Positions 2,447 through 44,279 of a DNA stretch of 64,000 bases are shown here, in pieces. Position numbers and translations under genes: made by a program. Below the pieces are notes generated by a model that was given only the letters and a program-made list of their open reading frames with translations, did no database searches and was not told the origin of the DNA. Origin of the DNA: Sphaerolaimus hirsutus. Its lineage: Eukaryota > Nematoda > Chromadorea > Monhysterida > Sphaerolaimidae. The stretch is from the NCBI GenBank assembly GCA_964036195.1, contig OZ038452.1:16486704-16550703 (forward strand), given 5' to 3'. Position 1 is the first letter of the stretch; each line of letters starts with the position of its first letter.

Positions 2447-5269
2447 TACATATACACAGCGCTGCCTGATGATGCATGCTGTACTTGTAGCCCACTTGAA
2501 ATCATCGCTTATATTATAGCTAGAAACTACATGATGAAATTAAAAAGTAGATGGGTAATCATCTTTCAAGGATTCATATGTTGACACTTAGGTATGCTAA
2601 GAAGAAAATATTTATGCCTGAAATTTATAAATGAATTGGACGAACACCGCAATTATGTAAAGATGTCTGGAGAGGGAGGTACAGTAATCAAGTGGAAAAT
2701 AAACATGCATTTGCCCCAATATGTAGATAGGTAGTGGGAAGGAAAGTACCACTTGTAACGCATACAACAGATACATAGATACACGCACACAGAGCAAAAT
2801 GAATGAAAACCATGGTGAAAACGGCAGCAAGACAAACAGAGCAAACGACGCGGACAGGTTCACACGAGTCTCGTCCTACATGTGGTCAAATATTGAAGGC
2901 GACCGAAATCAATTCTGTTTGCGCAGCGTCGTCTTGCGATCTTGCGGGGTTACGGCACCAATGACCGTGAGCGGCGCAAAATAAACGCTATTTAAACGGT
3001 CGCTCAAACAACAAAGGCGTGTGCCGCGCGGCGACGCCCGCCGCCTAAGCGGCCCTAATGAAATGCGGGCCGACGCAAGGCGACACAACAATGCGGCTCT
3101 CGTGTCGCGATAAACATCTTTTATTTCGGGACCACTGTGGGAAAGTGTCGACCCCGCGGCAATAATGTTACTGATATGATTGGGAGATAGGCGGTCGCGT
3201 GGCGCGCCGCGGGTGGCCCTATTACTTGTCGACATTGATTCATGCCCGATAGCAGCTGATCGGATCTCATCAATCAGAGCCAGTGCGGCACGCTGCAGCG
3301 CAAGTTTCTGTGAGTGACGCAATATGCACGCGCGCGCGGGGGTTAGCCTAGGCCGGCGCCGGGGTGGCCCCCGCATTTATCATTGTTGCCACATGGCTGC
3401 GTTGCGTCATAAAGGACCGGATGGGGTTATCAATAGGTACTTGCATCTCGTCCCGCGATCTTTTCCATGGATCGGTATATGGCAGGAAAAAAGTCAATAT
3501 CCGTCTTTTATTTTTCTGCGTTCCGCGAACTAAGTAAATACTATGCCAAAAATACTTTCGGGCGGCAAACTGTGTGAGAAACTTACTCAAGGAAAGCTTT
3601 AAATGCACAATCATTAAAAAATAATTTCCCGCAATGCCTCTACCCTCCCGCTCCGTGTATACGGTAGTTAAGACTCAACGTTTTCGTTCTGTTTCGGAAC
3701 AGTGTTGCGGCTATCGGATGAAATCTCATGCCTTATGCATCAAGCTTAAGTAAAAAAATGGATGAGAAGGATAAGCAATGTGACACCCTCTCAGGGCGGC
3801 GGCAAGTGCGCCCTGAAATTGAAGCCGTTCACCGCCCCCGTGCTGTTTCTAGATTCAACTGAATTATGTAAATACCTCAAGTAACGCTCTGGAGTAGCGT
3901 AGAACATTTATGCAAAATCGTCGCTCCGATTTACGGCAATCGAATTCTCAAATAACCATGCACCAGACTTCGAAGGAAGCTTTTTGCTTATTCAGCACAT
4001 AAATCGACGGCGGGGAACGCGTGCCTGTGCCGGCGGTTACAGCGGCGCCTTCGCCGTGGGCATAAATTCTCCAGAAGAGCCCTATCTAATCCGATCGTAG
4101 GAGAAATCCAATTTAAAAGAAGCCCCCAAGACTGGTGTGCATTTTTGTCGCGGCACTACGTTGAGCGAAATTGAATTTCCCTTCGACGGCGCACATCGGC
4201 CGCAATAATGAGCGACGATTTAGAAAGTCGCTGACGCCGCACCGCGACCGACATGCTTACTTAATAAAATACTATTTATATTTTGCCAGTCGACTAAACT
4301 CCGCACTGGCGAGTTGTTGTTTCTATTTGAGCTCCATCCATTGCGGTCATTGAGTCACTGATCACATGGGTGAGCTATTTGTGTCAATGTCATCAAACTA
4401 AATATTTTAAAAAAGTAAATAGAAATGCATCGCTAGAAGTCCGTGGAATTGAGCAAACTTGCTGAGTTGAGTAAATAGCTTCTCGACGAGGGAATTAGCG
4501 TACATTATTAGCGAATAGAGAAGTCGATCACAAGTACAAGTTGTTCAACGCCACTTGAATTGAAGTTGACAACATACTTGAGGAAAATGATGATGATGAA
4601 AGAAATGAATACAAGTTTTTATAAATGAAAATAACAACAAGTGCAATTGACAAGCGTTGCAATCAACATTCCCATTTCATGCGGCCAGAATGAGTTAAAA
4701 TACCGCTCAGATGTCACATAAAATCTCTGCAAAATCAATCAAAATGAAACACGTTTTTCAAATTACAATTATTCCTGATGACAGTCACAGATTTCACATT
4801 TCACAGGACGGCCATTGTGAATAGTTTAGTGACTCTGTGTAGTTTTCAAACATTTTCGCATCCATAACTACAAAACTGTTTATATGCCTGCAACGTTTGA
4901 AATTATTTTCCAGTAACTACTTTTAGTTACTTATTCAGGATGTTACTTCAATAATATTTAGAAGTACTTTTACATGCCAATTGCACCATCTAATGCTAAA
5001 ATACTACACCGCATGTAATTTTCATCGCTTGTCAAATGTCGCAGACGAGTTACTAAGAATACTGAAGTGATGGCATCAAAACCGTAATTAATTAAACAAC
5101 TTTTCAACGGTGCAGTAAAAGGGCACTACTAATTAAACAACTTTAATTTGAGAAAGCAACATGTTTAAGTGCAAGTAAACACAGTAGAATACGAAGGCTG
5201 ATGATGATTAGCAATTACGCACTTGTGCACTACTTACAGCCCACTCAATTGGCGCGGCGCAGAGCAGTG
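2447..5269. other. Unassigned intergenic DNA
   Basis: No gene, RNA gene or clear element ends found. 2900-3400 is CpG-rich and has a 155-codon open frame on the minus strand (2909-3376) that is arginine-rich with no recognisable domain; probably composition-driven. The remainder is AT-rich. Confidence 0.4.
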
Positions 5270-5277
5270 CATCCACG

Positions 5278-5610
5278 CAGAGTTGTTAAAAGTACTGAAC
5301 TTTTTTCAAAGTAAACTTTTGCATAAAGTATTTTATTTGTACTCATCCCTGAGTACAAAAAACGTAAAGTAAATGTTTTTAGTTTTACGCCGCATAAAAA
5401 AGGTGAGTAAACGTAAATACCAGTATTTCACTAAGGGAGACGTAAAAGCAAGAATTCTTTCCTATTTTGTTCCTAGGAAGATGTAAAAGCAAGTAATTCC
5501 TTTGAGTAGTTTTTGCTTTTTATGCACACCGAGAAAATTTCAAATACGTTTTCTGTACTCGCGTACTTTCAAAAAGTACGCGAGAACGTAAATACTTTTT
5601 AACAACTATG
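5278..5610. mobile_element. hAT-like MITE, CAGAGTTG family, copy 1
   Basis: Termini are CAGAGTTGTTAAAAGTA and TACTTTTTAACAACTATG. The 8-bp duplication CATCCACG is exact at 5270-5277 and 5611-5618. The interior repeats GTAAA/TTTAC and AAAACGTAAA words and the core CGCGTACTTTCAAAAAGTACGCG shared by all copies. 333 bp, non-coding. The perfect TSD marks this as the youngest-looking of six copies in the window. Confidence 0.9.
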
Positions 5611-21169: not shown

Positions 21170-21890
21170 ATCACTAAGTTTATTGTAATTACTCTATCAG
21201 TATGACCACCCTCCAATAAAGCGACCCCTCCAATAGTGCGACCCCTTTGGGCACGTTGTGTGAGTATAATGCGACCCCCTCCAATGATGCGACCCCCGAC
21301 CTCCAAAATCGCTGTTTCATTTGTCTAACTGCCAATTTACAGCTATTTTTTAGTACTATGGCTTCTTATATACCCACCGTATTTCTCGAATTACCCCCCA
21401 GGGGTTTATTGTTTTCAGAGTGAAAATTTTGAGAGAAAAACGTGAAAAATGTAACAATAACCACCATTTATAAGTTTTTACAGCCTTATAGAAGGATGTA
21501 GATGGTATAAACGATGTTCTAACGTAACACAGTATTTAAGTGTTTTGAATATCTGTTATGCATTTCCCGGACCACAAATTCATAGTGCCCATTTTGAGGG
21601 AGGGTATTTCGAGGGGGGGGGGGGGTATTTCGAGGAAATACGGCATATTAGCTATTTTTCACATAGGTAGTTTTGACGAGTTTTCTCCCTTTTCTTCCTT
21701 CTACACCATGAAAAAGCCTTTACAATGTCATGCTCACACTTGAGTTATGTAGACAGTTGAGTCGTTGAGTTGCCGCAAGATAAAAATGCGACCCCCTCTA
21801 TTAATGCGACCCCTCCAATAGTGCGACCCCCAAAAATGTGCTGAAAACAATAATGCGACAGTCGCATTAATAGAGTATTTACGGTATATG
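21170..21890. repeat. Two TGCGACCCCTCC repeats around a G-run MITE
   Basis: 21205-21300 and 21783-21870 carry CCCTCCAATAGTGCGACCCC words in the same sense. Between them is an ACCGTATTT-family copy (about 21376-21646; ends ACCGTATTTCTCGAATT and ATTTCGAGGAAATACGGC, run of 13 G at 21613). The layout fits an older element interrupted by a younger one. Confidence 0.6.
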
Positions 21891-25525: not shown

Positions 25526-27772
25526 AAGCAAGGTGGCACTAGAGCCATAATGAAGGCATTTCAAAGCTTTTCTCCAATCCGACGCGAAGAAAGGGGGTTC
25601 AGCGCTGGATCGCATTACAGAGGCAATTTTGCGCTTCAAGGGTCCATTTGTCAAATTGATAAACTATACCTCACGTTTCATTGACTACAGTAAGTATTGT
25701 ATTTAGCATAGGCTCTACTGAAAATGGCAAACAAATATAATAATGCGTTTGAAAATTATCCATTATGGCACAAGTGTCCACTAGCTTTGAAAAGCTAAGA
25801 ACGCACATTGCTGCCGCTCTCTATTGAAAGGTTTTTTGCTGATTACGTTTCATATGCTTTTTCACCAAAATTACCGCGGTGTTCATTTACCTGTGCTCGT
25901 GTTGCAAATTGTCAACGCGCAACTTGTGGCAATATATCAGCCGAACACCTTTCTACGGGCACATCGACTCCCATTGTATTCCTACGAAATTATACGCCGC
26001 CCTGCCCAACAAATCCACATTTTATTGGGCAGCGTATAATTTCAGATGTATTGAATGTATCGGTCAGGCTGAAAAACGTGTCGGTAAAATTAAATCTAGC
26101 GACCGCAGTGCACTTCACCTGATTTGAGTTTAGCGCCACGCAGCGACAACGCAGGAAGGTAGACACAGAAAATTAGTGCCACTTCCTGCGTCTACACAGT
26201 GAAAGCTACAAGTGCAGCGCAAATAGGTACATCCAATCTTATCTAGCGATGAAAAATTCGCCAAGCTAATGGAACACGTTCTTTGACACGGTTCCATTGT
26301 TTCACAAATATTTTTTACTTTCACAAAATTTTTCCTTTCAAATATTTTCACATAATAAACCTACAGACCAAAGCTTCAGTGAATAATGCCACTTTGTTGC
26401 CTGTGTTCGTTCGGCAAACCGGCATTCAGAAATACGAAGAACTGAAAAACTTTTGTTTTTAGCATTTCAGGAAGACATCTGCATGCGCTTCTATGACTGA
26501 AAGAAAATGGAAACCCCGCCCCCATATTTTGTAGAACAGGAACGCCCTTCTATCACAATAAATAATTTGAGATGTCACAGTGTCGACATGAAAGGAGCAA
26601 AAACGACCACCAATTTCCAGTAATATTTCATTGCGTCGGTGGAACTTGTTGAAGCTTCCAGCTTTTCTGAAAATGCCACTATAATAATCGACAAGCGCTA
26701 AGGTGTGGCGAGTTCACCATGGCGCTCTTCAATAGCTAGTAAAATTGCTCTGATATAAATGATGTTCAAATTTGAGTTCAAATAGGGGTAATCAGAAAGC
26801 AGGTTGTGCTACTGGGTGCAGAAGTGAACGGAACCCTCATTACAATTTACTTTTTTCTCCTAAATATATGTGTAGCCTCCATCCAATCTTTTTACATTCA
26901 TTGTCATTTACAGCACTTCATCGTAGCAATGATTAATGTTACACACAAATATTTTGTCCGACAACAACAACCGGGTGATGAGCCCCGCACTCGTGCACGC
27001 CGATAGAGATTCACTCGAGCGCATTTGTGACTCCTTCACGGGGTGCACATAATTTTGGCTTGCGGCAGCCAAGCAACAGGAAATTTGGAGCTTCCGTTTC
27101 ACTACCGCGGTGCACTGGCCATTTGGTTAAGGCGTACACGCGTACTTTCCAGTAGCGGCATGTGCAACGTAGGCATGTACAAATTGCTCATGACAATTGC
27201 AGATGTTATTATAGTTCCCCTTTTTATCGATAGGACCGTTCGGATAGGGGAAAAATGCGTGAGGTGGGATCAGTCTGAGCTGTCTGGCAGTGTATTATGT
27301 TCAAACTTGACAAAATTAAACCCAGAAACTTCATCTCGGATCGAGGAAATTTCATCTAAGATCTAGGAAATTTCATCCCGCTTAGTCTTGATCACTTTCT
27401 ATCAATTTTACAATTCACTTGAATTCCACTTCTAAATTGGGTACTGATGAGATCTTAATTCTCTGTCATTTGTGACGCCCAGCACCAGGCCTCAGCGCCA
27501 TGAAGATTTTACATGGCTGTGAACCTTTGGGACGTTTATATTTAAGTTGCATCCGAGTCTAAATACGAGGAAAATTTCAGCTTCAGTTTTGTAAATCGGT
27601 CAGATCACCAGAAGCCACAACGAATATTTACAAACCACGCGGTTACAAAATGACCAAAACTGACTCGCTTAAGACCCCGCTTACCTACGCTAATCTGCAG
27701 GCCATCATTCGGCCGCGCAGGCTGAAATAACCCCCACCCCAAAATACAACTCCAGCCTACCCACTAGTCTCG
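25526..27772. other. Unassigned DNA upstream of the neuropeptide gene
   Basis: No gene recognised. Open frames at 25808-26122 and 27043-27366 lack domains. The last few hundred bases before 27773 should include the promoter of the peptide gene, but no clear TATA box is seen. Confidence 0.4.
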
Positions 27773-28722
27773 ATGGCTTGGCGTACGGTTGCCCTGGTGT
27801 CGTTGCTAATGTCGCTGATAATCGCGGCCGCTTATTGCGACGAGGCGCAGCACCACAAGGACGAGCAGGCGCACAGCAGTCGGTTTTCACGTTGCTCATG
27901 TTTGCACTGTACAAAAGATATAAATGGCGCTGCACACACTAGTTTATTAACAAAAGTAAACTCATTTTGGGTGCTCATAAATACGCTTTGAACGCATTTG
28001 AGTTTACCAGAATGAGGTGTCTGTAAACTACAGTTGACGAGGATGTAAAATAACGTATTCTGGTAAACTCAAATACGTTCAAAGCTGATGTATGGGCACC
28101 CAAATTGAGTTTACTTCTGTTACTAAACTAGTGTGTGCGGCCACATTATTTTGGAAATATGCTGATCGAAAGATGTCTGGCTACAAGAATGCGAGTGGGA
28201 GCATAAAAATTCACTGCTTTCCGATGTACTTTCGGATGAATTGATCGTACAGGGCTATCCTAACTTCTCTGGTCCAAAAGACCATCCTTTTACGCAACTG
28301 ATAGTACTTCACAGCACAAACACGAGCGCAGAGAAGCGGCGCGATGTGTCCGACGAGGAGGAGGGGATGTACGTGCCCGCCGACCAGCTGGAGCGCGCCA
28401 TCCGCAAGCCCGCCTTCGTGCGATTAGGTCCGCCTTTCAATCGTTTTTTTTCAATCTGAGTAGCCCACTTTAGGGCCGAGAAAACGTGAGCCCCCATTTC
28501 TGAGCAGGTAAAAGGAAGCCGGCATTCGTGCGCTTGGGCAAGAGGAAGCCGGCCTTCGTCCGGCTCGGCAAGAGATTTGGTAAGCGAAATCTCAGTGAAA
28601 AATGGCGTTGAAAAATCGGAACGTATAAACACCATCGATGACAGGTGAGCGCGAGCTATACTACGACGCGGACGACAGCGAGTTCGAGCGACACGCGCGC
28701 AAGCCCGCTTTCGTCAGATTAG
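27773..28722 (+). CDS. FVRL-amide neuropeptide precursor (exons 1-4; 3' end not found)
   Basis: Four exons join in frame: 27773-27882, 28315-28427, 28508-28579 and 28645-28722. Exon 1 encodes a signal peptide (MAWRTVALVSLLMSLIIAAA, cut near AYC). Exon 2 has an AEKRR processing site, an acidic spacer and the first IRKPAFVRLG. Exon 3 has two KPAFVRLGKR units, and exon 4 an acidic spacer and ARKPAFVRLG. Expected products are about four copies of KPAFVRL-amide, released at KR or R sites and amidated from the Gly: a secreted signalling peptide for a G-protein-coupled receptor. It resembles nematode FLP-9 type KPSFVRF-amides and lophotrochozoan FVRI-amides; the exact family is uncertain. The exon 1 donor (CG|GTTTTC) is weak; an alternative is A|GTCGGT joined to the acceptor before AGAAGCGG. 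Exon 4 ends in a donor, so more exons must exist; transposons fill the following 6 kb. Confidence 0.8.
27924..28146. mobile_element. Inverted-repeat MITE in intron 1 of the neuropeptide gene
   Basis: Ends AATGGCGCTGCACACACTAG and CTAGTGTGTGCGGCC are inverted copies. Longer inner arms (GGGTGCTCATAAATACG versus ATGTATGGGCACCC, AACTCAAATACGTTC versus GAACGCATTTGAGTT) make most of it a hairpin. Relatives lie at about 32960-33095 and about 43325-43500. Confidence 0.8.
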
Positions 28723-29591
28723 GTGAGCGATTAATACACGGTGGACGGAGAAGTCTACAACCCGTCCAAAGGGCCAGGGTGCAATTGCACGAATTGTAAA
28801 GTAACAAAGCGGCACGAGGTGATGCGAATACCCCCAGGTCCGAGTGAGCACTCAACCATTTGAAATAACCCCTTTGAAACTTTCCGGAGTGCACATAAAT
28901 ACAAACACCAGAATGCAGACAGACACGTATAAAACTAGTAAACCTGCACCATGAGTTCTGCCGATTCCGCAAGTGGACAAGTATTTACAATATATTTACG
29001 ATAAGTCATAAGTGGCCAGGGTCTTGTAGATTTGGACTCCCGCTGGGGTTCAGATTCGTATTTGGTAAAGTGGTCCTCCGGAGCAGGGTTGGCAAAATCT
29101 CAGAAAAAAATAGAAATAAAATAAAAATAAAATGGAAAATTGAAGAATAAAATAATATAAAATAAAATGGAAAATAAATGAAATAAAAATACAATTACTA
29201 AAATTTTACAAAAACTCAAGTGTCTGTAAAATTCTATAAAATTTTTCCATTATGTTGCTTAAGATTTTAGCTGTCAATTTGCAGAACTGGTGCCCTGTTG
29301 TTGCTTTCATTGTTGTGATTGAAAAATATTTTGGCTCAAAATTGCAAATTTTCACATCTTTAAATATATTTTCACCCAAAGAATCACTAATTTTTTCCCC
29401 ATTTTCTTCATTCCATACCTTGAAAACGCCTATATATGGAACTCTGCAACCCCCCCCCCAACCCCGCCCATATAACAAATTTTTAGCTATCTTCCCTCGG
29501 GTGGAGAAATTAGCTACATATCTATCCGGCCCCTGTGAGGGTCAAAATTCAATATTTTTACCTGCGTCGCAACTAGTGATGGAAAAGCGCC

Positions 29592-29868
29592 AGAAAAAAG
29601 GGCGCCAGGCGCCAATGGCGCCATGGCGCCATTCAGAAAGTGGGCGCCAAGCGCCAAGGGCGCCACAGAAAAAGGGCGCCAGGCGCCAAGGGCGCCACGG
29701 AAAGAGGGCGCCAAGCGCCAAGGGCGCCACAGAAAAAGGGCGCCAGGCGCCAAGGGCGCCATGGCGCCATTCGGAAAGCGGGCGCCAGGCGCCAAGGGCG
29801 CCACGGAAAGAGGGCGCCATGGCGCCATTTGAAAAATAGGGCGCCAGGCGCCAAGGGCGCCAGGATAA
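29592..29868. repeat. GGGCGCCAAGCGCCAAGGGCGCCAC array
   Basis: About a dozen GGCGCC palindromes are arranged in units near 33 bp (GGGCGCCAGGCGCCAAGG then GCGCCACAGAAAAA). This array creates arginine/proline/alanine-rich open frames on both strands, which are artefacts. A shorter matching array is at 31466-31600, and a fragment at about 56475-56525. Confidence 0.9.
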
Positions 29869-29920
29869 ATAAGTGCATGCAACACCCTGCGTGTGCTAAA
29901 AGTGTTTCTACAGCACCCTA

Positions 29921-31065
29921 GTAAACCCTTGTTTACCTCGATCCGGATGGTTGTGAATTTTTTAAAAACGTTTCGTTCACGCCACCCTGTAAAGTTTTCG
30001 GGAAAATTGACCCGACTCAAAATATAGCCCAAAGAATTGTCTACATGATGTACGGATTGCCCCCCAATATAACGCCGCGTGGGTCGTGCAAGCGGGCCAC
30101 GCATTTTTTTATACCAAAATGCAGTGTTTACCTCGGTCCGGATGGTGGCTCCAAACTTTATATAGTCTGTTTTTCAAGGCCAGAATTTGGCCGAAACATA
30201 GAACAGTGTCCTGGCTTAGTGCCAAATGCCATTTCCACGGCTTATTTACAGGCAGAAATAAGATTAGGATATTTTCAATTTGTACTGTTTTGTACTGCGG
30301 ATCACGATCAGCTGTGATTGTGATCATTTTATCGCCTCATCTTACATCTATTAACACAGAAAATGCTTCCAACAGAAAGAGAAATCATTCACGGTATTCT
30401 TAAAAACCTACTCCGCTTAAATACACCCTTCCCAAAAATGAGATATCGAGGGGTGAAATTTAAAAAAGTTAGTACATTTCGTCCGGGAAGGAAATTAGTA
30501 GTAAGTAAAGTTTAGCAATGTTTTTTAAATTTTGCCCCTTAAATTCTCATGTTTGGGTGGGTGAATTTAAGCGGTGTATGTTTTAAAAATACCGCCAAAG
30601 ATTTCTCTTTCTGGTGGAAGCATTTTCTATGTTAATAGATGTAAGATGAGGAGATAAAATGATCACAATCACAGCTGATCGTGATCCGCAGTACAAAACC
30701 GTGCAAATTGAAAATATCCTAATCTTATTTCTGCCTGTAAATAAGCCGTTGAAATGGCATTTGGCACTAAGCCAGGACTCTGTTCTATGTTTTGGCCAAA
30801 TTCTGGCCTTGAAAAACAGACTATATAAGATTTGGAGCCACCATCCGGACCGAGGTAAACACTGCATTTTGGTATAAAAAAATGTGTGGCCCGCTTACAC
30901 GGCCCACGCGGCGTTATATTGGGGGGCGATCCATACATCATGTAGACAACTCTTTGGGCTATTTTTTGAGTCGGGTCAATTTTCCCGAAAACTTGACAGG
31001 GGGGCGTGAACGAAACGTTTTTAAAAAATTCATAACCATCCGGATCGAGGTAAACAAGGGTTTAC
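29921..31065. repeat. Fold-back palindrome with arms of about 550 bp
   Basis: The left arm begins GTAAACCCTTGTTTACCTCG and the right arm ends with its inverse near 31065. Arms pair almost throughout (about 29921-30480 with 30510-31065) with scattered differences, e.g. CGCTTAAATACACCC against GGTGAATTTAAGCGG. Open frames in the two arms are mirror copies and not genes. Confidence 0.85.
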
Positions 31066-31876
31066 ATCCATTCACTACTTTATTTGCGTTCTCCAGGGTG
31101 TAATGAACAAAGACAACACTAGCAACAAAAAAATTCAAGTAAAATTCACATGACAATTCAAACACAATGGATATTGTCATTTGACAATAATCCATTCACT
31201 GCAAATTGACTTTTCCAATCATGTTTCCTCGAAATGGACAAAAAAACGGAATTGCAACGATTTGAATCCGTTGATTTATGATTTTGCAAGTTCAACGTTC
31301 GATCATTCTCGTCTTCTGATCTGTTAGACACATCTGATGAACCGTTGCACAAAAGATTTATACCCACTCACACCACTTCGTCCATTTTTCTGGCGAATTC
31401 AGATCATCCACGAATGCGTTTTTCATCTTTTTTCCATTTATACAGCACTTACCTTGAAACCCTGCTGGCGCCATTTTGGCGCCCTTTAAAAGCAGGGCGC
31501 CAGGCGCCAAGGGCGCCACAGAGGAAGGGCGCCAAGCGCCAATGGCGCCATGGCGCGGCGCCCTTTGGCGCCCTCAAATGGCGCCAGCGCCATGGCGCCA
31601 TTCCATCACTAGTCGCAACCCGTGTCACAAGTCTACATTAAATATTTTGTATTCATATGCATGTCTAGTGTGTACATTGTTTTATGGCCTTGCATCCAAG
31701 ATTCCGATTTTTTGTAAAAAGTTTGTAAAATATTTGTAAAAATTTTGTAAAATGGGTTCATTTTATTTTATTAATGACATTTCAGAATAAAATAAAATAA
31801 AATAAAACGAAACATGAACAAAATTAAAATAAAATACAATTTTATGAATTTTTCTAAAACCAACCATGCTCCGGAG

Positions 31877-32766
31877 GGATAGCTGGAACAATTTCTGGGA
31901 GGTTTACCTAAGGGGTTCATAGGGGCTTCAATATACAGGTTTTTCAAGGTGTAGAAGGCAGAAAAAGGGAGAAACTCCCAAAAAACGGGAGAATAGCTAT
32001 TGGTAGTATCACATACCGCAAATCCTTGAATAAGACCCCCATCGAATAACCCCCCTGAATAGCTATCCTCTGTTTACGAGGTGAGGAAAAAATTACTCAA
32101 CCCTCGAATAACGCACCCCCTTGAATAACTCCCCCCTCTGGATGAAAAGGATACAATACCAAAATACAAAACAATATTAGTCTACCACAGCGACAGCAAA
32201 TACATGATGTGTATGCGGTGTATACACATATTTTCGTCGTTGGACAGTTAAATCCCTTAATGACATGAGTTAACAGATCCATACAATGAATCAAGTCTAA
32301 GTTTTCTGAGGAAAATTAAGTCCCCCCTCGAAAACGTCTGTCAAAAATAACTCCCCTCGGGTCTTATTCGAGGATTTAGGGTATATAGTCAATAATAGCT
32401 GCAAATATGCAATGAGGCATGCGGACTAGTGATTTTGAAGGTGAAATATGGCAAAAAGTGTGCACAGTAATTCGCACGTGGGCCTTACTTTTTATCCTTT
32501 TTTTCTGTCTGCAAGATTTCTTATTTCCGCGTCTAAAGAAAAGTTCGGACATCTAGGTAACTCAAAAACTCAGAGTGCCTGGAGCCGTCGTTAAATTTTC
32601 GGTGTATTTCGAGAGAGGGGGGTATTTTTCCTTCCCTAAGCTCGCTCAGACCTGGCGGTATTTCGAGGGGGGTCAATTCAACGGGGGGGGGGGATAATTC
32701 GAGGAAATACGGTAAGTTTCAAATTCCCAGGAAAATGTTCTGCAAAAATCGTATCAGCAGCTGGAG
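31877..32766. repeat. G-run MITE relatives
   Basis: 32019-32383 is a diverged copy with CAAATCCTTGAATAAGACCC and TCTTATTCGAGGATTTAGGG ends. 32600-32713 is a second fragment ending AATTCGAGGAAATACGGTA with a run of 10 G. The remainder is unassigned. Confidence 0.55.
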
Positions 32767-34365
32767 ACATCAAACACCCCCGGACATCTGCGCTCATAGC
32801 ACATCAACATGCGCGCAGTGGGCCTGGACATCCGTGACGCCAAGCCACTGTCCATCGTTCGCCGCCGCGCGGGCTTGTCTTTGTTGACACCACATGACAT
32901 GACGCACCCTTTACCGTTTGCGGTCACGTATGGCGTGCCCTCTGCCAAGACACATGGTTGCTGCACACACGATTTTAGTAACATAAGTCAACATAATTTG
33001 AGCGCTCAGAAATAAGTTTTGAATGTATTTGAGTTTGAGTTTACAAAAATTGATGTTTATTGGCAGTAAACTAGTGTGTGCAGCGCCATTTACTGTGCCA
33101 TGTGGCAACTAGTGATGTAAAGGCACCGGGGCACCGGTGCCCCGTTGCTGGGGAGCGAAGGGCACCAGCACCGGTGCTGGTGCGGTGCCCTTTCGATTTT
33201 CAGAGGTGCCCTGCCGGTGCTGGTGCCATTTTTTTAGAATAGCACCGGTGCTGGTGCGGTGCGGTGCCAATTTTTGGCCGGTGCCCAAGGTGCTGGCACC
33301 GGCCGAAAAAACTGGGGCACCGGGAAAGGCACCGGCAGGGTTTCAAGGGTTCAAAAAATGTCACGTTTCAGACCATGTGTGTGTACACTTAAAAAGTGGC
33401 GCAATGTAATCGACATCAAAACATGCTTGCAAAGCCTTTTAACGACATTGTTCAAATATTTACATAGTTGAAAAAAGGAATGCGGGTCGGATATGAGTGA
33501 TTCCAACGTTTTGTGATGCCCCACTCTCGATATAAGCTCTATAAAAAGTTGTAATTTATGATATGGTAGGTATATGTTCAGACAAAACAAATTGGTGTTG
33601 GAAAACATGGTCAAATCGGCATACGGAATATAGGCATCACTAATCTGACCAATAAAAACGAATAGGTATACAGATTGCGCCGATTACTTGAAGTGTTCAA
33701 TGGTCTAAATCGGTCAAGATATGGCCAAGTTATTGAGCTTCAAAATCGATTGGCCATGTAAAACGATCACTTTTTATAGACCCCATTATCTTGGGACTGG
33801 GGATTTTTCCACGGGGATAACACAAACGTCTGGTGGACTCCCCTCCCAAAAAACCCACCCCATCTATCCTACGCACAGCAAAAGCTCCTTCATCGCACTA
33901 CCTAAAGCCGCATAGATTGACCATTTTTGTCATCTAATTGTTTTATAAAATATGACCCGGTGCAGTGCCTTTCAGTGCTAGCACCGGCGACCGGCCGGTG
34001 CCCTTCGGTGCCGGTGCCATTTTTTTCGGAATGGCACCGGTGCCGGTGCAGTGCGGTGCCATTTTTTGGCCGGTGCCCCAGGGTGCCAGGTGCCCTTTTC
34101 ATGACATGGGAGGGGTGCCGGTGCGGTTCGGTGCTATTTTTCCCAGTGCCTTTAACATCACTAGTGGCAACAACAGAGTGGGCACTTCCGCAAGGTGACA
34201 AGCGCAAGATTGCGCGGTGGAGGCAGTGTCAGCCAGGTGCGTCACGTGGCGGCAAACGATGGATAGTGGTGCAGGCTTGGCGCCATGCATGTCCAGGGTG
34301 TTTGCAACCCACTGCACACATGTAGATGTGCTATGAGTATGGATGTCCAGGGGTGTTTGATGCCC
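32767..34365. repeat. Fold-back element containing other insertions
   Basis: The left arm (about 32767-32910; TCAAACACCCCCGGACATC, CTCATAGCACATCAACATG) is inverted in the right arm (about 34195-34365; TAGATGTGCTATGAG, GGATGTCCAGGGGTGTTTGA). Between them lie a CACACACTAG-type MITE (about 32950-33095) and the TAGTGATGT element at 33110. The 68-76 codon frames here belong to the repeat. Confidence 0.7.
33110..34163. mobile_element. hAT-like element, TAGTGATGTAAAGGCAC family
   Basis: Ends TAGTGATGTAAAGGCAC and GTGCCTTTAACATCACTA are inverted repeats with one gap. An exact 8-bp duplication GTGGCAAC lies at 33102-33109 and 34164-34171. Both subterminal zones are packed with GCACCGGTGC palindromes (33120-33345 and 33955-34150). 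Non-coding. Confidence 0.9.
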
Positions 34366-35802
34366 AGAGGTTTTTACCACAAAAATCTAATGTCAATCCA
34401 GTGTTCAAATGACAAATAAACAGAGGGATTTGCTAACAGAGGCCTAGTAGGCATGTAAACCCGTTACACATGTAAATCTGCCAGCTACACATGTATACCA
34501 ATTACACAGCTATGAGGGTATACATGTGTAGTGGGCAGGTGCCAGGTAGATAATGTGTTGGGGCTGCTGTGCAGTATGTGGAAATGAGGTAGTGGTGCCT
34601 TTTTAAAGAATGGTGATGAAGCCATGCAGATTATCTCGCATTGTTGTGTTGTCAATTTTGTCACTCCCCCAATAGATGTGTACTGACTGGGTAGATTTAC
34701 ATGTGCAACGGGTCTACATGTGCATTGGGTTTACATGTGAACTGACACAGGGTCAGATTTGCCGTGGTTATTTTGCAGGGGTAAAGTATAAAGAACATAT
34801 GAAATTTGTGACTCTTGGTTGCGATCGGGTGCGCCATGCCCCAGCGGGCCGCACGTGGCTATAACTACTCGCACAGGTAAACTGATCGCTAAGGTCTTGC
34901 TGGTCTTGCGCAGGCTGAAGGATGACCGGCACCGGCGGCCAGTTCCAACCTCCATGTGACAATCTGACAAGAACCAGTCCCTTTTTACTTCCTGCCCTCT
35001 GCAGCCAGCCACGCGCCCATCCTAGTCTGTTCTGAAATATATTTTCACAAATACATATAAATAATAATCACCTATTCACACCCCACTGCTAAATACATAG
35101 CTTTACTGACTTATATTCTTCCTACAGTTTGTTCCTTTACTAATTTGTCTCGTTGCTTTCTTGTAATAATACGATGAAAACTTAGTACAATGAGAATAGA
35201 CATGGTAAATGAATAGTGGGGCATTGAAATGCGGTGAGCAGAAAACTGTGGCCTTTGAAAATACCAGAGGGATAATTGTTGTCTACTTCAGTCCAGGTAA
35301 ACGATTATGATAGAATTATGTCATGTTTATGCCATCAAGTGCCAAGTGTGGGTTACGGTATGTTTGATGACATCATGACTGGATACATATTTTTGGGATT
35401 GTAATTACGTGAAATGAGTGGGAATGTGACGAAAACTACCCCACTGGTAGGTTCAATGGCCCCTGTATTCTGCTGCGGTGATTACATTACACAAATGCAG
35501 GTGTAATGAATTCATGTAGTGTCATGTCATAATTGAGTGCGGTTGTGACTACTTTGACCACTTTATCCTGTACTGTTACTAATTTGCACATTTCCCTGTT
35601 GTGGCTTGAAACATTGAAGTATCGGCCTACTATAAACTCGTTTGTTGAGATGAACATCATTTGATTGGGCTCGTGTGCGTGCTTATCACCACAATATTTA
35701 CCATTTCCGCAGTCAGCCGTGAATCGATGAAAAAGTGGAGTCATCACCATATTGGTTGCATTCGATGTTCTGTGCAAAAAGCTAACTTACATAAACCATC
35801 TG
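34366..35802. other. Unassigned DNA
   Basis: 34440-34540 has several copies of ACACATGTATACC/GGTATACATGTGT, and 34690-34750 of ACATGTGCA words. No exon of the neuropeptide gene was recognised here. Confidence 0.4.
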
Positions 35803-35940
35803 GAGGCACTCCCAAACCCTGTAAAATGTCAAATGTAATGTAAACGAAGTTTGCCATTTTACACTAGATTTTACATTTTGACAGTTTTGACATTTTGCAT
35901 GACATTTGACATTTTACAGAGTCTGGGTGTGACACCTGAA
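35803..35940. repeat. CTGTAAAATGTCAAATG family element, short copy
   Basis: Starts GGCACTCCCAAACCCTGTAA and ends TTACAGAGTCTGGGTGTGAC, imperfect inverted repeats. About 140 bp with TGACATTTTGCATGACATTT inside. A sister copy is at 43108-43265. Confidence 0.7.
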
Positions 35941-37208
35941 ATTAATTACATTGGCTTTTAACGAGGGTGTTCTACTTTTCACCCCATATGGTTTTCATCG
36001 TAACAGTTTGCATCTGAAGTCTTCCATTTCAGATGCCGAAATGTACCATTTTACAAGCTCCAGACATGTTTTTGCTTGCGAAATCAATGTAACACTTTTA
36101 TAGTGAAGTAACTGTTTACACCGCTTGACATGCCTCAACATTACAGTTTACAATAACAGGCATAACAAAGGTGTTACAGAGTATTTTTGTGCTGCACTCA
36201 CAGGCTGCAGCAATGCTGGTTTACTTTGATTGGAAATTGTATTAAACCAATATTGTTCATGATTGATTTTACCAAAAGGTTCATTGGCAGGATTAAACCT
36301 CGTGTATAAAAACATACATAAGATGAAAAGTGAACCAGTGATTTAGCATGAAAAGTACTGGCACCTTTACCTAAATATGTGGAGAACTACACCACGTAAA
36401 CCGTAAGCACGTAAAGCATATTGGATGAAAAGTCGAAATCCCTCTTCTTAACAGCAGCAACGCAACTGGAACTGAACCGAGAAGGATCGAAACGACATGA
36501 GTTATAATAACCGTGGTTTTATTCCGATGGAAAATCGCCGGGAATAATGGCACCGGATGGTCTCACATTTTTACACCGCTATCTGTGCGAAAGCCGCACA
36601 ACAAAAGCGAACAGTCATTTTGCCGCTTTCAAACAATAAAGTACCATAAATCCTCGAATAAGTCCCTTTCGAATAACCCCCCTCGAATAAAACCCACCTG
36701 TTAGCGGACTGAGGAAGCTGTTAGCTGACTCGAAAATCTCCGCAACGTTCACGTTAATCCGCTGATAAATATTTGATAATCCTCAGCCTTCGGTGCAGTT
36801 GATAAAAAAGTACGGCCGCGCCCGGACCACAACATACTCGAAGGGAGCGTAAATGGGAGTAAAATGAAATGAGAAAACAGAAAAGTCTGCTCGACACAGA
36901 CCGCTGCAAGCAATGGCACTACCGGTGATGAAATGTTAAACTAGAGCGCTGGCAGTTCACGACTACACACCAAACAATATCGAAATCTTCACGTTTTGCA
37001 ATTTCACTGATTTTCGTTATCAGTAGTGAGAGGATAGCCAACCCGCATTCGAGTGACAGGGCGAAGGCAACAACGGTGAAGCAAGCGTACGGATAAACAT
37101 GAAATGCGCGTGTACTGGAATTATGATAATTACAAGTCACAGCTAAACTAGACGCTCGCAAGCAGATCTATATCCAATATATCGAATATAATTGTATAGA
37201 ATCACCAT
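35941..37208. other. Unassigned DNA downstream of the glycosyltransferase
   Basis: 36300-36440 has CATGAAAAGTG repeat words. 36642-36710 is a G-run MITE fragment (ATCCTCGAATAAGTCCC). The region next to 37209 should contain the 3' UTR of the minus-strand gene. Confidence 0.4.
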
Positions 37209-40200
37209 TCAATGCGTGTGTTGGGAAAGCAGCCCTCTGGCGGTGAGAACCTCTTTCCATAGTGAATATCTGCACAATTGGCACTTTGTAGCAATGGGAA
37301 AAGTTTTAAGCTGTTCACACAGTGACCTGCTCACCTTGAATTCATACTGCCTGGAATATGTCCAAATATGGCATAGCCATCGACTAGGCGTTCGTGCATT
37401 TCTGCCTTCTTTAGAACATACAAAGATGATAGCGAGATGTAGCTCGCATTCAGGGGTCGTATCAACAGACCAGTGACATAAAAATCGTCCACCTGCGTAC
37501 ACGTGAATACGTTGTAGCATTGAATTGTTGCGCGGTAATGGAATGCAAAATTGACAGCGTGTGTTAAAAATGGCAAACTTACCCAGAAAAACTTGGTGCG
37601 GAATGAATTTTCATACATTCCAGGTACCAAATCCCGTGTCAAAATGTAAGCGGAGCCGCTGCAATAGCGAGTAAAGTAGTCTTCTGCCCAATCGTCCTTG
37701 GATACAAACCACTTATTTTTTGGGTCGCGCTGCACCGGCATCCGAGTCCACAACAAGCACAGGACTGTGCGAGACCGACTGCCACCTGCAGCAGCAGAAA
37801 CTATTTTCAATGGATAGTAGTTCGAGTATCGATATAAAACTGGCAAAAAGTCAAACCTGTCACAGCCGCTGGTCTCTTGTAAATGGCACTCAAATGTGCG
37901 GCCAAGTTGAAAATATTAACGAAAATATCATCGTCCACTTTGAGAACATATCGCGCCTGTTTGCAGTGCTCGGCGGCCCATCCCAACCACATCACACCCT
38001 GAAACAAAATCCCTTTTGCGTGACTCCTTCAAATGACGTCATAAAAAAGGTCCCACCTTGTATGTGAGATTCTTGTACGAATCCTCAAAGTCCTCCTGTA
38101 TGATATCACCGAACCTGGCGCTCTCGGCGGCGACCATTTTCATCGCGGCTGGCTCGGCGGTGCGCGCGCCTAGCGCGAATAGCACGACGGTCTTGACCCG
38201 GTCGTAGTGCTCGTTGGACGCCCACGTGTCGCGCACCACCATGCGCCGTTTGATGTTGCTCGGAGCGGAGTGCACGATCGCCAGGATGAATACGTCCGAG
38301 CGCCGCCCGCTGCGATGCGTAGGAAAATGTGTTACACGTTTTACACGTTTATCATTGACTACAGTATCACATCGACTGACTTCCACTTTTGATAAACTCC
38401 ACAGTGGGAGACAATTGAAGATACATAGAACAAATCTCTACTAAATACATGGATCACAAAAAAAACAATTAGGTATACTGCGTATGCGTCCAAAATAACT
38501 TATGTCTTTGTCGATAACGCGCGAGGACGATACTTATGAACGCACTTTCACAAAAATAAAAAAGGCGGAGTCGCGTATGAGTGACGAACGTTTTGTCCTG
38601 AAGCGTTATTTTTTTAAACAACTTTGATTTTATTACCGATGGCGCCATGATGGAGTGTTCAATTCAGAAAAATGCATATTTACCGTGCGATCCGCGGAGT
38701 ATAATGGAATGAAGCCAAGAAGCTACCTATTTTACCAATTAAGCGTTGACCCAGTAAAGAAGGAATATTGACAACTCTCTCCCCCTAAAGCCGGAATTAG
38801 AGCTCAGCGTCTATTCGACGTGAAATGATGACGTGAAATGACGTCGTGAAATTAATTACACGAGTGTGGATCATGCTACGGGTCTACAATTTTCTAAGGA
38901 TAATATATGAATCAATACCTTAATCGTGTCCAATACTGAGTGTTATCAGCCACAACTAGAGCGAATTGAAAAATTCAATTTTTATCATTTCGCGTCATCA
39001 TCATTTCACGTCACAGTGTCAGGGAACAACTTGACATTTGACATCAGACTATTGCAAGCAAAAGTCTGACATGAAATGTCAAGTTGTTCCCTGACACTGT
39101 GACGTGAAATGATGATGACGTGAAATGATGATGACGTGAAATGATAAAAATTGAATTTTTCAATTCGCTCTAGTTGTGGCTGATAACACTCAGTATTGGA
39201 CACGATTAAGGTATTGATTCATATATTATCCTTGGAAAATTGTAGACCCGTAGCATGATCCACACTCGTGTAATTAATTTCACGACGTCATTTCACGTCA
39301 TCATTTCACGTCGAATCGACGCTGAGCTCTAATTCCCGCTTAAATGATTACCGAATGTAAATTTTGCAGTTACAGTGCATCATGAATCGTATCTTTTCAC
39401 TAACAAAATCTATGGTTGAGATTCGAGAAAATTATGATGACAGTGCAACTCGCTACTAAGTAAGTAATCGCTCGCTAAGTAATCAAGCAGTTAGAAAAGT
39501 GTGACCGAATTCTCGGTGTAGTCGATTATAGTAGTATAAAATGCGGTAATTGAAAACTTATTTTCCAAACCTGCATGCGCCTGACGGATTGTGTATCATC
39601 TTGAATGGGTGCGGGTTGATGACTTCATTTGATAAAGCTGTAGATGCCGTTTGGGCCGACTGCGTCAATTCTGCAAGTTAGGTAAGTCTTTTGAAACAGC
39701 ATTTCTCGTTCCCCGTTACAATTGACTACAGCAAAGGGAGCTCCGACAACAAGTTCATGCAGTGAAGAAAGATCATTGCAAAAGAGTGACACATTTCAAG
39801 TAGTATAAAATCTGGGGCGAAATTCAATTAGCCCAACACGCTTTTCGGTCGCCATTCGGCCAAGCAAAACCGCAATGGATCACAAAAAATAACAGCATGA
39901 ATTTCACACCCAATGAATCGGCTGCCCAAAATGCATGTCGGACTAATTAAACGAAGCACCTGTCGTCTGGATGGCGATTCCGCCGGGTTCAGAAAAAATG
40001 CTCATTGTTGACGTCACTGCCGTGGCCGCGGCAACTGGCTTCGATTTCGTTGTCGCCAACGCAGTTCCAGATGTGACTAGATCTGGCCCGAGCGTTTCTG
40101 TATGACAGAATTTAGAGAGGAAATGCGGAAGATAGGGCTTAATTGACTTAATTGACCCCGTCTTCACTGTGGCTACTCAAAAACGCTGTTAGACTGAAAT

Positions 40201-41106
40201 TGTCAGGAAATATGCCATTTTGTCAGTTTTAGTATTCTATCACTCAAAAGGTGGCCATAAAAGCAGCTGGTGGTTTTATAAATTTTGGTTTTATAAGTTT
40301 GTTTCGTTTCTAGAGCACAAGATTTTTCTTAGTTATAGTCATTTCATCCGAACGCTGGTACAGTGGTTCAGTAGAACTTGGACCTTTGAGTGGCCAACTG
40401 GAATAGCCATGCAAAAATGGAAGTATCCAATTTGAGCAATTTATGGACTGTTGTGAAATAATGCTCGAACAACCCGTGTATATCAATTGGATAGAGGACA
40501 CAAGGTTACAATTACCTATTCAAGTTCATATTGTCATTATATTTATATTTACACAGGCAGTGTACAATCGCAGCACTGACAATCTAAAGAAAGACATCAA
40601 GCTAAAACTTCCAGAAGCAATGAGCGACTCCGGTTAGATAGAACTAGCATGCAAACAGGCGGTCGCACTACACAATACACAGCCGACGAGCCACACGAAG
40701 TGAACCATGCGACAGACCATAGCGCACGCCAAACGTGTCGACCCATCGCGGCTGGCGCTGCTGCACCCGCTCCACGCCCTGCTCGTAGCCCTCCTCCAAC
40801 TGGTACTCGCCGCCGGACATCTGCGCGATGCGATCGCCACTCAGAGCAACAACGTTCAGCGCGTCAACGAGCGCCACTCACCGCGGACACGATGGCGAGC
40901 ATGAGGCCGGTGCCGGCGATGGACGCGCTCACCACCAGCGCCGACTTGAGCACCAGACGCACGCAGTAGGCGGGCCCGCAGCGCCGCCGACGCCGCCCCG
41001 ACGACATGTCGCCGGCCGCCGACGGCACGCAGGGGCTGCCCGCCGCGGTGCCGCACTTGCTTGGGACAGAGCTGCGAAAGCCGCCGCCGTCTGTCCACGC
41101 ACTCAT
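37209..41106 (-). CDS. Beta-1,3-galactosyltransferase (GT31), seven exons
   Basis: Exons on the minus strand: 40882-41106, 40681-40820, 38057-38309, 37857-37998, 37583-37764, 37335-37492 and 37209-37269. They join in frame to 386 residues. Exon 1 gives a type II Golgi anchor: basic RRRRR, then a membrane segment ALVVSASIAGTGLMLAIV. Exons 3-7 hold the catalytic domain. Its motifs are VFILAIVHSAPSNIKRRM, VRDTW, the DxD metal site in KVDDDIFVN, RYCSGSAYIL, VDDFYVTG (the family's EDVYVG) and a C-terminal YSLWKEV. The enzyme should transfer a hexose from a UDP-sugar in beta-1,3 linkage; donor and acceptor cannot be told. Exons 3-7 are firm. Exon 2 and its donor (CT|GTGTAT) are uncertain, since they were chosen to satisfy phase, and another exon could lie in the 2.4-kb intron 2. 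Intron 1 would be only 61 bp. Confidence 0.9.
38470..38702. repeat. CTCGGCGGACCGCA family, copy 3 (in glycosyltransferase intron)
   Basis: Shares TATGTCTTTGTCGATAACGC, AAGGCGGAGTCGCGTATGAG and GATTTTATTACCGATGGCGC words with 881-1141 and 24175-24855. Ends near CGATCCGCGGAG. The left end is eroded. Confidence 0.65.
38792..39336. repeat. Near-perfect fold-back in glycosyltransferase intron 2
   Basis: Arms 38792-39050 and 39063-39336 are near-perfect inverted copies around a 12-bp loop. The right arm is longer by about one 15-bp unit (GACGTGAAATGATGAT). The arms carry repeated ATGACGTGAAATG words. The high arm identity points to a recent origin. Confidence 0.85.
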
Positions 41107-41229
41107 CGGCGGGCGGTTCTACCGCTCGAGTCGATGATCACGGACGAATATGTATCAGTTATCGTAGATCCGCCTGTGAGTTAAAAGTTTGGTTGGACAC
41201 TGCAATGTTGTCGCGTGTGAGGAAATTGC

Positions 41230-41839
41230 CATAATTGTTAAAACGTATTTACATTTACTCAAAAAATATGTATACATGAGTCCTAAGTAAATATGTTTGT
41301 TTCCCCTAGCAAAAAAATACCAGTGGTAACTTTTACGCGTTCTTTGTGAAAGTACGTGAGTACAGAAAACGTAATTCAGAAAAAAATGGGAGCATAAAGA
41401 GAAAATACGACTCAAATGAATTGAAACAGCTGCGAAAATGGCAGCAGAAATGATTGAAGTTGCAATGGGTAGCAAAGCGACGACTCTCACTTTTACTTTT
41501 ACTCACTTACATGTGTTTCTGGGTAGAAAATCACAAAATCCTCGCTTTTACGTTTTCGCTGGGTAAAGATACCGGTGTTGTATTTTAGGGTTGAGTAGTT
41601 GTTTGTTGTTTGGTTTATTAGTATTGTTCTCACTATGACTGATGCCACAACTATATTTGATCAGATATGGTAGAAAGTTCACTGAACAATGCTATGCTAA
41701 GTTATGCTTACTCACCCTTTACGCAGTGTAAAAGTAAAAAATTTTACAATAAGTTTTCTGTACTCAGGGGTGAGTAAACATAAAATACTTTACGTTTACG
41801 TTTACTTTGAAAAAAGTTGAGTACCTTTTAACAGCAATG
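41230..41839. mobile_element. hAT-like MITE, CAGAGTTG family, copy 5 (inverted)
   Basis: Left end CATAATTGTTAAAACGTATT and right end CTTTTAACAGCAATG. Flanks GAAATTGC (41222-41229) and GAAATTTT (41840-41847) match at 6 of 8. It lies about 125 bp upstream of the glycosyltransferase start codon. 610 bp, longer than other copies. Confidence 0.7.
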
Positions 41840-41847
41840 GAAATTTT

Positions 41848-43107
41848 CGTCACGACATCATATTTCATGTTCCATTGAGTGTGGGAGGGCGGTGACTGAT
41901 AACACTCATTTATAAGGTCACGCTTATTGTGTGGCAACGTGATACCGGTTGGTGTTTGCATTGTCTTTTATCACGTTAACGCCACAATTCAATTAAACAA
42001 AAACTCATAAGTACAACATCAGTACACTAGTCTGCTACAATAAAAAATTCTATGCACTTACAAAAGCATCGACAACAATCAACGTACGTGTAGCAAGACC
42101 GACTTTGTATACAGCTGTGGATATGCGCAGAGAAAAGTACCTATGTAGATTGTGGTTTGCAGGAGTTTCACCCAAAAAGCTCGTTCGTTCGTTCCGTCTA
42201 CAAGGATTCCCAAAGGCCACCGCAATTTTGTATTCTGATTGTCGAGCCGCGGCAACCTAAAATTCCCACCGGAAAGCGGCAGGTTGTGTGCGACGCAGAT
42301 AAAAAGTGGTCGGCAATTCGTAAGACGGATTTTTATTACTATTTTCACTTTCGATGAATTTATTTGACGCTCTAATCAAGCAATAAAAGGCGCATGGATG
42401 GCATCGCATCAATAAATAACAGCCTAGATGAAGGAAGCGTCTTCAGTTGGACGCAGGAGCGGCAGCAATCTCACAACAAATGTATGCATGAGCATCGACG
42501 TTTGAAACGGTCGCCTACCGCTGGCTGCGAATCGGAATAAAATTTCATGTCAAGTGGAATAATTCTTTTGGAATGCTTGGTGGATTATAGTAATAAATTG
42601 GAATGAAATTTAATTAGCCAGACACGTTTTTCAGGCTGCTCGATTCATCATTGTATGGATATTTTGCGTTCGGATTTCGGAACTGTGACCACAACGAATC
42701 GGGCTGCACAAAAAATGGGTGGTGCTAATAAAATTTCAACTACCTAATCAACCAAAACGTTGTATAGAAATAATACCGCATTGGCGTTGAATAAATCTGT
42801 TTTATGCTCACAGTCACACCGTAATTCCAAAATTCAAATTGGAATTCCACCTCTTCCAAACCCGTTATAAAAATACCTACCAAAATACAAACGGTCCACT
42901 TTGAAAAATAGAGTATGAAGGATACACTTTTTTGGTCAAGAAACGAATGCATCCCACTATACAAATGCAAACCACTCTCCCACGATGAGCTACAAAAGCG
43001 AACGGGAGCCATTTTGAGGAAGCACAATCGTACAGACCTGAGCAGGAGTGCTTTGTGGGATTAGTCTGACTGCGAGCATTTGGTAGAAAAATGCGCGTGC
43101 AAGGCAG
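41848..43107. other. Unassigned DNA
   Basis: Apart from the possible exon at 42163-42357, nothing is recognised. Two stretches (39830-39930 and 42600-42720) share GAAATTCAATTAGCCCAACACG / GAAATTTAATTAGCCAGACACG words, so a dispersed repeat is likely. Confidence 0.35.
42163..42357 (+). CDS. Possible terminal exon of an unidentified plus-strand gene
   Basis: A TGTGGTTTGCAG acceptor precedes 65 codons open in phase 0 (EFHPKSSFVRSVYKDS to DFYYYFHFR) ending in TGA. An AATAAA signal follows at 42382-42387. The protein is not recognised. It contains a G-K-R (PTGKRQ). No preceding exon was identified, so this may be chance. Confidence 0.25.
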   Translation, partial: EFHPKSSFVRSVYKDSQRPPQFCILIVEPRQPKIPTGKRQVVCDADKKWSAIRKTDFYYYFHFR

Positions 43108-43265
43108 ATGCCAGTCCCGGACCTTGTAAAATGCCCTGTAAAATGTCAAATGCCATGCAAAGTGTCAAAAGTCTACGTACGTTTGCCATTCTACAGAGCA
43201 TGACCTTTGACATTTTGCACGACATTTGACATTTGACAGAGTATTTTACAGGGTCTGGGATTGCC
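43108..43265. repeat. CTGTAAAATGTCAAATG family element, second short copy
   Basis: Starts GATGCCAGTCCCGGACCTTG and ends ACAGGGTCTGGGATTGCCC. The interior shares TGACATTTTGCACGACATTT with the copy at 35803. Confidence 0.7.
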
Positions 43266-44279
43266 CCCAGGTGTTGCACTGCAATTTATTTTTCCGAGAA
43301 AGAACTGTTTGGCAGTTTTATGCTAAATGGCACCTACACACACTAGTTTTCACCGAAATTTCGACAAAATTGGAAGACTCATAAATCAGCCGTGTACGCA
43401 TCTGAGTTCACAAGAATGAGTTGTTTGTCAACTAACGTTTGTGAATATAAAAATGACCCTTTCCAGTAAACTGAAATGCGATCACAACTGATTTATGGTT
43501 TCAAATATTTTAAGTTCAAAGTTTCGGTGTATAGGAACAACAGGTGCACATGCAGATAAATAAGCCACCTATTTATTTTACAGTTTTGCGGGGGCACAAT
43601 GATTCCGTTGGCTTGTCATCTATGATAAATCAAGAGAAAATTTCAAGAAGACATGTTCCATCGAAATGAATAAAACAGGGCCCGGTTCCAGGTTGGGACA
43701 ACGCAGAAATTTGGTTCCAGTTTAAAACATACCTAAAGAAAATTATGAATTAATAATAATAATAATTACGGATGCGTATCCCTAAATGAATTTGTTTCTT
43801 TTGTAAATTTATACATTTGAAAACAGGTATTTATCTGCGTTTGCCTGAAGCTGGTACTAAACCCAGCTGATGCACTTTACGGAATGCGAAAACTTTTCAA
43901 ACGGAAAAAAACAACTTAACGAAAAACATTGGGACCTAGTTTAAAGTTACACGAGAACCGTGCCGGTTTTTCAGTCCAAATCATGCTATGACTGAGGTCT
44001 ATAAATATTTACACTACAAAAATACCTCACAAAGCCGGCGTATATACTAATACTTTTGAGCGGCCGGTGAAAAGCATTTATCATCCGCTACATGAACACT
44101 GCCAATATGGACATGTAGCCTGTGTAAGTGTGTGCTACACACGATTTCCAGAAAAAAGTTTTTGAGTGCTCGAGGGGCGGTTGTTCTGAAAACCAAATTA
44201 AAACATGCTGTGGCACACGGCGCATTAAATATATTTAATTTCTACCAAACCTATAGCCCAGGTCGCAATATGCATCCAG
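43266..44279. other. Unassigned DNA with a MITE fragment
   Basis: 43325-43500 has AAATGGCACCTACACACACTAG-type sequence related to the MITE at 27924. The rest shows nothing. Confidence 0.35.

Follow-up and report, generated by a model that had tools for sequence, protein, structure and literature searches.

A predicted KPAFVRL-amide neuropeptide gene and its putative paralogue in a nematode-like genome

A stretch of 64,000 nucleotides (C3:16486704-16550703), hereafter the window, very probably contains a protein-coding gene for a neuropeptide precursor, from a nematode or its very close kin, that would work in the manner of flp genes, yield RL-amide peptides and have a duplicate on contig C13. 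On our best reading of the sequences, the two RL genes are an FMRFamide-like precursor pair fixed for -RL-amide and lying outside the flp genes checked. Genome searches covered the eukaryotic assembly of 348 Mb in 762 contigs.

Gene model of the KPAFVRL-amide precursor

The window gene is composed of a leader-like start and four KPAFVRLG units on 4 exons, joined in frame by GT-AG introns (Table 1). Starting from the ATG at 27773, the reading opens MAWRTVALVSLLMSLIIAAAYCDEAQHH..., with a hydropathy peak of 2.89 over 12 residues; the leader-like N-terminus read from this codon, MAWRTVALVSLLMSLIIAAAYCDEAQHHKDEQAHSS..., was judged from hydropathy alone. The spliced reading then runs MAWRTVALVSLLMSLIIAAAYCDEAQHHKDEQAHSSRTNTSAEKRRDVSDEEEGMYVPADQLERAIR-KPAFVRLG-KR-KPAFVRLG-KR-KPAFVRLG-KR-FGERELYYDADDSEFERHAR-KPAFVRLG..., in which two units are whole (28516-28539 and 28546-28569) and two have an intron-split glycine codon (28406-28427 and 28701-28722). 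The intron phases are 2, 1 and 1, then 1 after exon 4. The phase-1 introns cut glycine codons, either that of the would-be amide glycine (copies 1 and 4) or that of the spacer glycine in exon 3. Left unspliced, exon 3 would end its frame in KRFGKRNLSEKWR-stop. Donor 2 is weak (gtccgc), and the acceptors have short pyrimidine tracts as judged by eye. Only one R, not KR, precedes copies 1 and 4, and these two could therefore also yield PAFVRL-amide.

Exon 4, though not the gene, ends at position 28722, where the preliminary description stopped. Read without splicing, exon 4 continues as RLG-ERLIHGGRRS..., where no basic site adjoins the glycine, and copy 4 would thus not be amidated. We looked for a last exon among G-[KR][KR] acceptors (27700-44000 and 28000-60000) and among G-[KR] or G-stop acceptors (28724-36000). 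The candidate at 35297, which supplies GKRL-stop, has the best pyrimidine tract among the last-exon candidates listed (0.73). Simple arithmetic gives an expectation of about 1 G-[KR][KR] site per 4 kb, and the 31.5 kb from the start of exon 3 contain 8; because dibasic sites are as frequent as chance predicts, this last exon is tentative.

Table 1. Features of the KPAFVRL-amide locus, in window positions
Feature	Positions	Strand	Description
Exon 1	27773..27882	+	Start codon, leader-like MAWRTVALVSLLMSLIIAAAYC..., start of propeptide; phase 2 at end
Inverted-repeat element, intron 1	27923..28147		91-nt arms, 88% complementary, 43 nt apart; outside the coding gene
Exon 2	28315..28427	+	Acidic spacer and KPAFVRL copy 1 (28406-28426); phase-1 intron splits glycine codon
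Exon 3	28508..28579	+	GKR-KPAFVRLG-KR-KPAFVRLG-KR; copy 2 at 28516-28539, copy 3 at 28546-28569; phase 1 on either side
Exon 4	28645..28722	+	Acidic spacer ERELYYDADDSEFERHAR and KPAFVRL copy 4 (28701-28721); phase 1 at both ends; donor gtgagc
Tentative last exon	35297..35310	+	GT AAA CGA TTA TGA, giving ...RLG-KR-L-stop; weak, at chance frequency

Several observations argue for a coding gene. The joined exons have a GC content of 62% (GC3 81%), compared with 41% in the introns. Among the four KPAFVRL copies, 7 of the 21 nucleotide columns vary, every one synonymously, leaving the peptide identical; random placement of the same column patterns gave synonymous-only variation in 0 of 200,000 trials. 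The pattern KPx[FL][VI]R[LFI]G did not occur in 100 random 64-kb sequences with the dinucleotide steps of the window. Chance or artefact was rejected on the basis of the synonymous-only variation, the GC contrast and the random sequences. The four KPAFVRLG units, secretory leader and KR sites that the preliminary description had read here are borne out by the in-frame model, the hydropathy and the pattern of variation among copies.

A second predicted RL-amide gene on contig C13

The genome-wide KPAFVR pattern search located a second RL gene at C13:11351899 (11.351 Mb; locus L008), which encodes NKPMLVRLG, PKPAFVRLG and NKPALIRLG. It reads MKQSNLRMLGMLCALCAFAVLVAADDNSHSGEMEDNEGKVHRRQAR-NKPMLVRLG, an intron in the glycine codon, then GKR-PKPAFVRLG-RAQRSQYFEDEDEYERPAR-NKPALIRLG and a phase-1 donor, gtgagt. 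This plan, with a leader and phase-1 introns in glycine codons, matches that of the window gene, and the acidic spacers are alike (YFEDEDEYERPARNKPA versus YYDADDSEFERHARKPA). In a single BLASTP comparison of the two precursors, 31 of 55 residues are identical (E 1e-14), with part of the score coming from the repeated peptide units themselves. The RLG ending is common to all seven units of the two genes, four in the window and three on C13. Downstream of the second gene's last recognized exon, the next 8.6 kb hold no G-[KR][KR] acceptor, and G-stop candidates are present. We take the two genes as paralogues, and a small gene family comprising both is supported by this comparison.

Repeats and other features of the window

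Ends similar to those of the intron-1 inverted repeat, CACACTAGTT...AACTAGTGTG, were seen by eye upstream of the second RL gene (L008, about 1-230). Given similar ends at both RL loci, the intron-1 element may belong to a mobile-element family. At window 29570-29870 lies an array of GGCGCCAAGGGCGCCA-type units, whose translated motif RQAPRAPQKKGARRQGRHG also appears in L020; the motif of the array is thus dispersed in the genome. The string AAAACAGACTATATAAGATTTGG occurs at window 30813-30835 (C3:16517516) and genome-wide, for example at C1:3336406 and 3337069, and this string or a close variant accounts for most of the 100 places listed out of 104 in the KSAFVRFG-type pattern search. Its copies often lie in pairs of opposite orientation, in many cases at a distance of about 660 bases, a pattern that the ends of an inverted-repeat transposon would give. 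Elsewhere in the window, two beta-1,3-galactosyltransferase-type pieces lie on the minus strand at 37331-38437 (Pfam Galactosyl_T, E 8.3e-14 and 4e-10), and 62875-63306 on the plus strand gives a weak match to the PDCD10 C-terminal domain (Pfam, E 1.5e-4, below the curated cut-off).

Other FLP-type genes in the genome

The genome peptide-pattern search found four KHEYLRFG units in tandem on C2, a peptide that we take to be FLP-14/AF2, and clusters of KNEFIRFG (flp-8 type) on C7, with a related gene on C6. At C7:20.62-20.68 Mb (L042-L054) the KNEFIRFG blocks repeat about 32 kb apart with nearly identical readings, which points to recent duplication or to a duplicate made in assembly, and a further FLP gene at C6:9772436-9772734 (L040) has the units KHEFIRFG, GHEFIRFG, KNEFIRFG and KSEFIRFG. 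Contig C13 carries, together with the second RL gene, a complete-looking precursor with four KPNFIRFG units (15.204 Mb) and an FLP-17-type gene (C13:16663505-16664108; L075, about 5000-5610). The latter encodes two whole KSAFVRFG units and a KSSYVRFG before the stop, and its third KSAFV-RFG seems to be split by an intron. The KHEYLRFG, KNEFIRFG and KSAFVRFG patterns demanded a final F, which makes RL variants of those genes undetectable by them; around the matches inspected, the neighbouring unit copies are RF.

The mitochondrial contig, 14,754 bp long, matches COX1 and can be read with the invertebrate code. Its COX1 looks nematode-like in our judgement, and nad1 (genes other than COX1 were named by eye) lies on the opposite strand, an arrangement that presumably speaks against a chromadorean; no atp8 was noticed among the genes named. 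Among 50 candidates scored for SL1 (Rfam RF00198) there was no match, and the controls were likewise without one.

In the literature, KNEFIRFa is assigned to flp-8 and KSAFVRFa to flp-17, KPNFIRFamide is cited as PF4 and KSQYIRF-amide is given as another FLP-17 peptide (PMC4058706); PNFLRFG is listed as the FLP-1 motif (PMC11658156). With its FLP-14, FLP-8, PF4/FLP-1 and FLP-17 peptides, the host repertoire is nematode-like, and the organism is very probably a nematode.

Placement relative to known flp genes

The motif search for KPAFVR-type units gave 20 matches in the genome: 4 in the window gene, 3 in the second RL gene, 4 in the KPNFIRFG gene, 7 with one common KPPFIR-coding string (on C1, C6, C9 and C15) and 2 single matches, KPYLMRFG and KPRFMRFG. 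For the nine KPPFIR or single matches, six loci were inspected on one strand (L012, L013, L018, L019, L020 and L031, leaving out L021, L029 and L030). In L012, L013, L019 and L031 the match is visible without any series of units bounded by dibasic sites; in L018 it does not appear in the readings, and in L020 it is on the other strand. Since the KPPFIR string and its surroundings recur, and comparable readings stand at 21461 and 24441 of the window, we take the string to be an interspersed repeat.

The layout of the RL genes is that of flp genes, with a leader (by hydropathy), repeated short peptides at mono- or dibasic sites and an amidation glycine. A strict definition of flp genes rests on a C-terminal RF-amide, which is found in none of the four window units or the three second-gene units; as all of them end in RLG, the window gene is not a flp gene by that definition, its layout notwithstanding. 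At the curated cut-off, Pfam FARP (PF01581) reported neither of the two RL precursors and both of the two control precursors from the same genome; the KPNFIRFG precursor is reported by it. A TMV_coat match of the window precursor (Pfam, E 0.066, under the cut-off) was taken as chance. RL-amide variants are described in nematode FLP-6, -19, -20 and -25, among them KSAYMRLamide of Meloidogyne (PMC11658156), which places RL endings within the known range.

It is conceivable, though rather unlikely, that the RL genes are an offshoot of flp-17/flp-6 or flp-1 duplicated within the lineage. FLP-17 (KSAFVRF-amide) shares the core K-x-A-F-V-R with KPAFVRL and differs at two residues, with Ser for Pro and RF for RL. 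The PF4/FLP-1 type peptide KPNFIRF-amide, three residues away, shares the core K-P-x-F-[VI]-R, a multi-copy precursor and acidic spacers with the window gene, and differs in its RF ending and its separate gene at C13:15.204 Mb. Both of these genes lie on the contig of the second RL gene. Known RL variants of flp-6 in Meloidogyne also fit an offshoot: the ending of KSAYMRL-amide is that of the window gene, but 2 of the 4 encoded peptides are RL there (PMC11658156), as opposed to 7 of 7 units over two genes here. Against such an origin stands the presence of separate flp-17-type and KPNFIRF genes with canonical peptides. Identity with flp-17 or flp-1 themselves was rejected, both peptide types being encoded by other genes; no KSAFVRFG-type peptide occurs at the window locus.

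FLP-9 (KPSFVRF-amide) has the same length and the K-P-x-F-V-R core of KPAFVRL, with Ser for Ala and RF for RL, and its precursor, like the window gene, carries repeated copies cut at KR. Being one of the two closest peptides considered, it invites the idea of a divergent flp-9 orthologue in which KPSFVRF-amide became KPAFVRL-amide by two substitutions in the lineage. The slot is free, in that the window locus and the 20 genome-wide matches are without KPSFVRFG, a motif that the search would miss where an intron splits it; canonical flp-9 was rejected on the same result. However, the second RL gene encodes KPMLVRL and KPALIRL, unlike FLP-9, and the opposite-strand nad1 (named by eye) presumably indicates a non-chromadorean. 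In a survey of 109 species, moreover, flp-9 was reported from clade 9 nematodes only (PMC11658156). We regard the orthologue as improbable.

The -FVRL-amide ending, which the preliminary description did not recognize in combination with the KPA start, is not new: a schistosome AFVRL-amide has been predicted, and some FLPs of nematodes have RL-amide variants. AFVRLa is a predicted peptide of schistosome npp-1, and ASFVRLa is listed for planarian npp-1, with GFVRLa and GFVRIa in the same row (PMC2953531); in cercariae, AFVRL-NH2 from Sm-npp-1 is given as predicted and not detected (PMC9495596). RRCSNRNFVRLa is listed for a cockroach (PMC12035899). The myomodulin C-terminus MLRL/MLRM-amide (GMPMLRLamide and the like; PMC4200219) is absent from the RL units, which end in FVRL, LVRL or LIRL. 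KPAFVRL, KPMLVRL, KPALIRL, PAFVRL and KPSFVRL appear in none of the searched papers (open-licence main texts, without supplements). The putative KPAFVRL gene may plausibly be lineage-specific, as the preliminary description suggested.

Orthology of the window gene to the lophotrochozoan FVRI-amide or flatworm npp-1 system is very improbable. The AFVRL-amide end is letter-for-letter that of the predicted schistosome npp-1 peptide, and the lophotrochozoan FVRI-/FxRI-amide (S-Iamide) precursors, like the window gene, combine F-V-R and an aliphatic amide with multiple copies. Yet the Schistosoma and planarian npp-1 peptides belong to flatworms, are shorter and lack KP, and the FVRI-amides have Ile for Leu and often SS or SG before FVRI. 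The literature treats FVRIa as a family of lophotrochozoans (PMC3890597, PMC4200219), short motifs converge easily, among nematode FLPs too (PMC11658156), and the peptide content of this genome is nematode-like. Of the relatives first proposed, the RF-amide-like link holds in the form of a predicted secreted, amidated precursor; the lophotrochozoan FVRI-amides count as a resemblance only, in a nematode-like setting. That the gene has decayed, or that chance brought the KPAFVRLG units together, is scarcely credible: the last exon is weak and an inverted-repeat element sits within intron 1, but the copies vary only synonymously, four exon frames are open and a second gene has a like plan.

Discussion

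For the FMRFamide-like RL pair, we infer transcription, processing, amidation, release, duplication history and receptor type from the gene sequences. The leader would direct the precursor to the secretory pathway, where convertases would cut at KR and at single R, the basic residues would be trimmed and the C-terminal glycine would be converted to an amide. Each window precursor would give KPAFVRL-amide three times, or four times should a basic site be encoded by the missing exon, with PAFVRL-amide possibly released from copies 1 and 4. The released KPAFVRL-amide would most likely act on one or more G-protein-coupled receptors, by analogy probably of the FLP-receptor groups. Both RL genes would derive from one ancestor via duplication.

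In a brachiopod larva, replacing the last Phe of FLRF-amide by Leu nearly abolished receptor activation and behavioural activity (PMC5577450), and a pair whose units all end in Leu therefore points to a receptor of altered selectivity, able to accept Leu or even favouring it. Tentatively, the pair may represent an RL-amide system in an early-branching nematode beside the normal RF set, with two genes, RL in all seven units and a leucine-tuned receptor of its own. It would then correspond to none of flp-1 to flp-34, being either a flp gene of ancient origin that the crown clades have lost or a system confined to this lineage. The 109-species FLP survey drew on the crown clades together with clade 2 and a single species of clade 6; according to its authors, genomes from clades 1-5 and from Nematomorpha would help (PMC11658156).

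The RL pair is not categorically new; for the question of how nematode FLPs evolved it is of moderate interest. The presence of AF1, AF2, PF4 and FLP-17 type peptides together with the RL pair in one genome would, once the clade is fixed, bear on which flp genes are ancestral.
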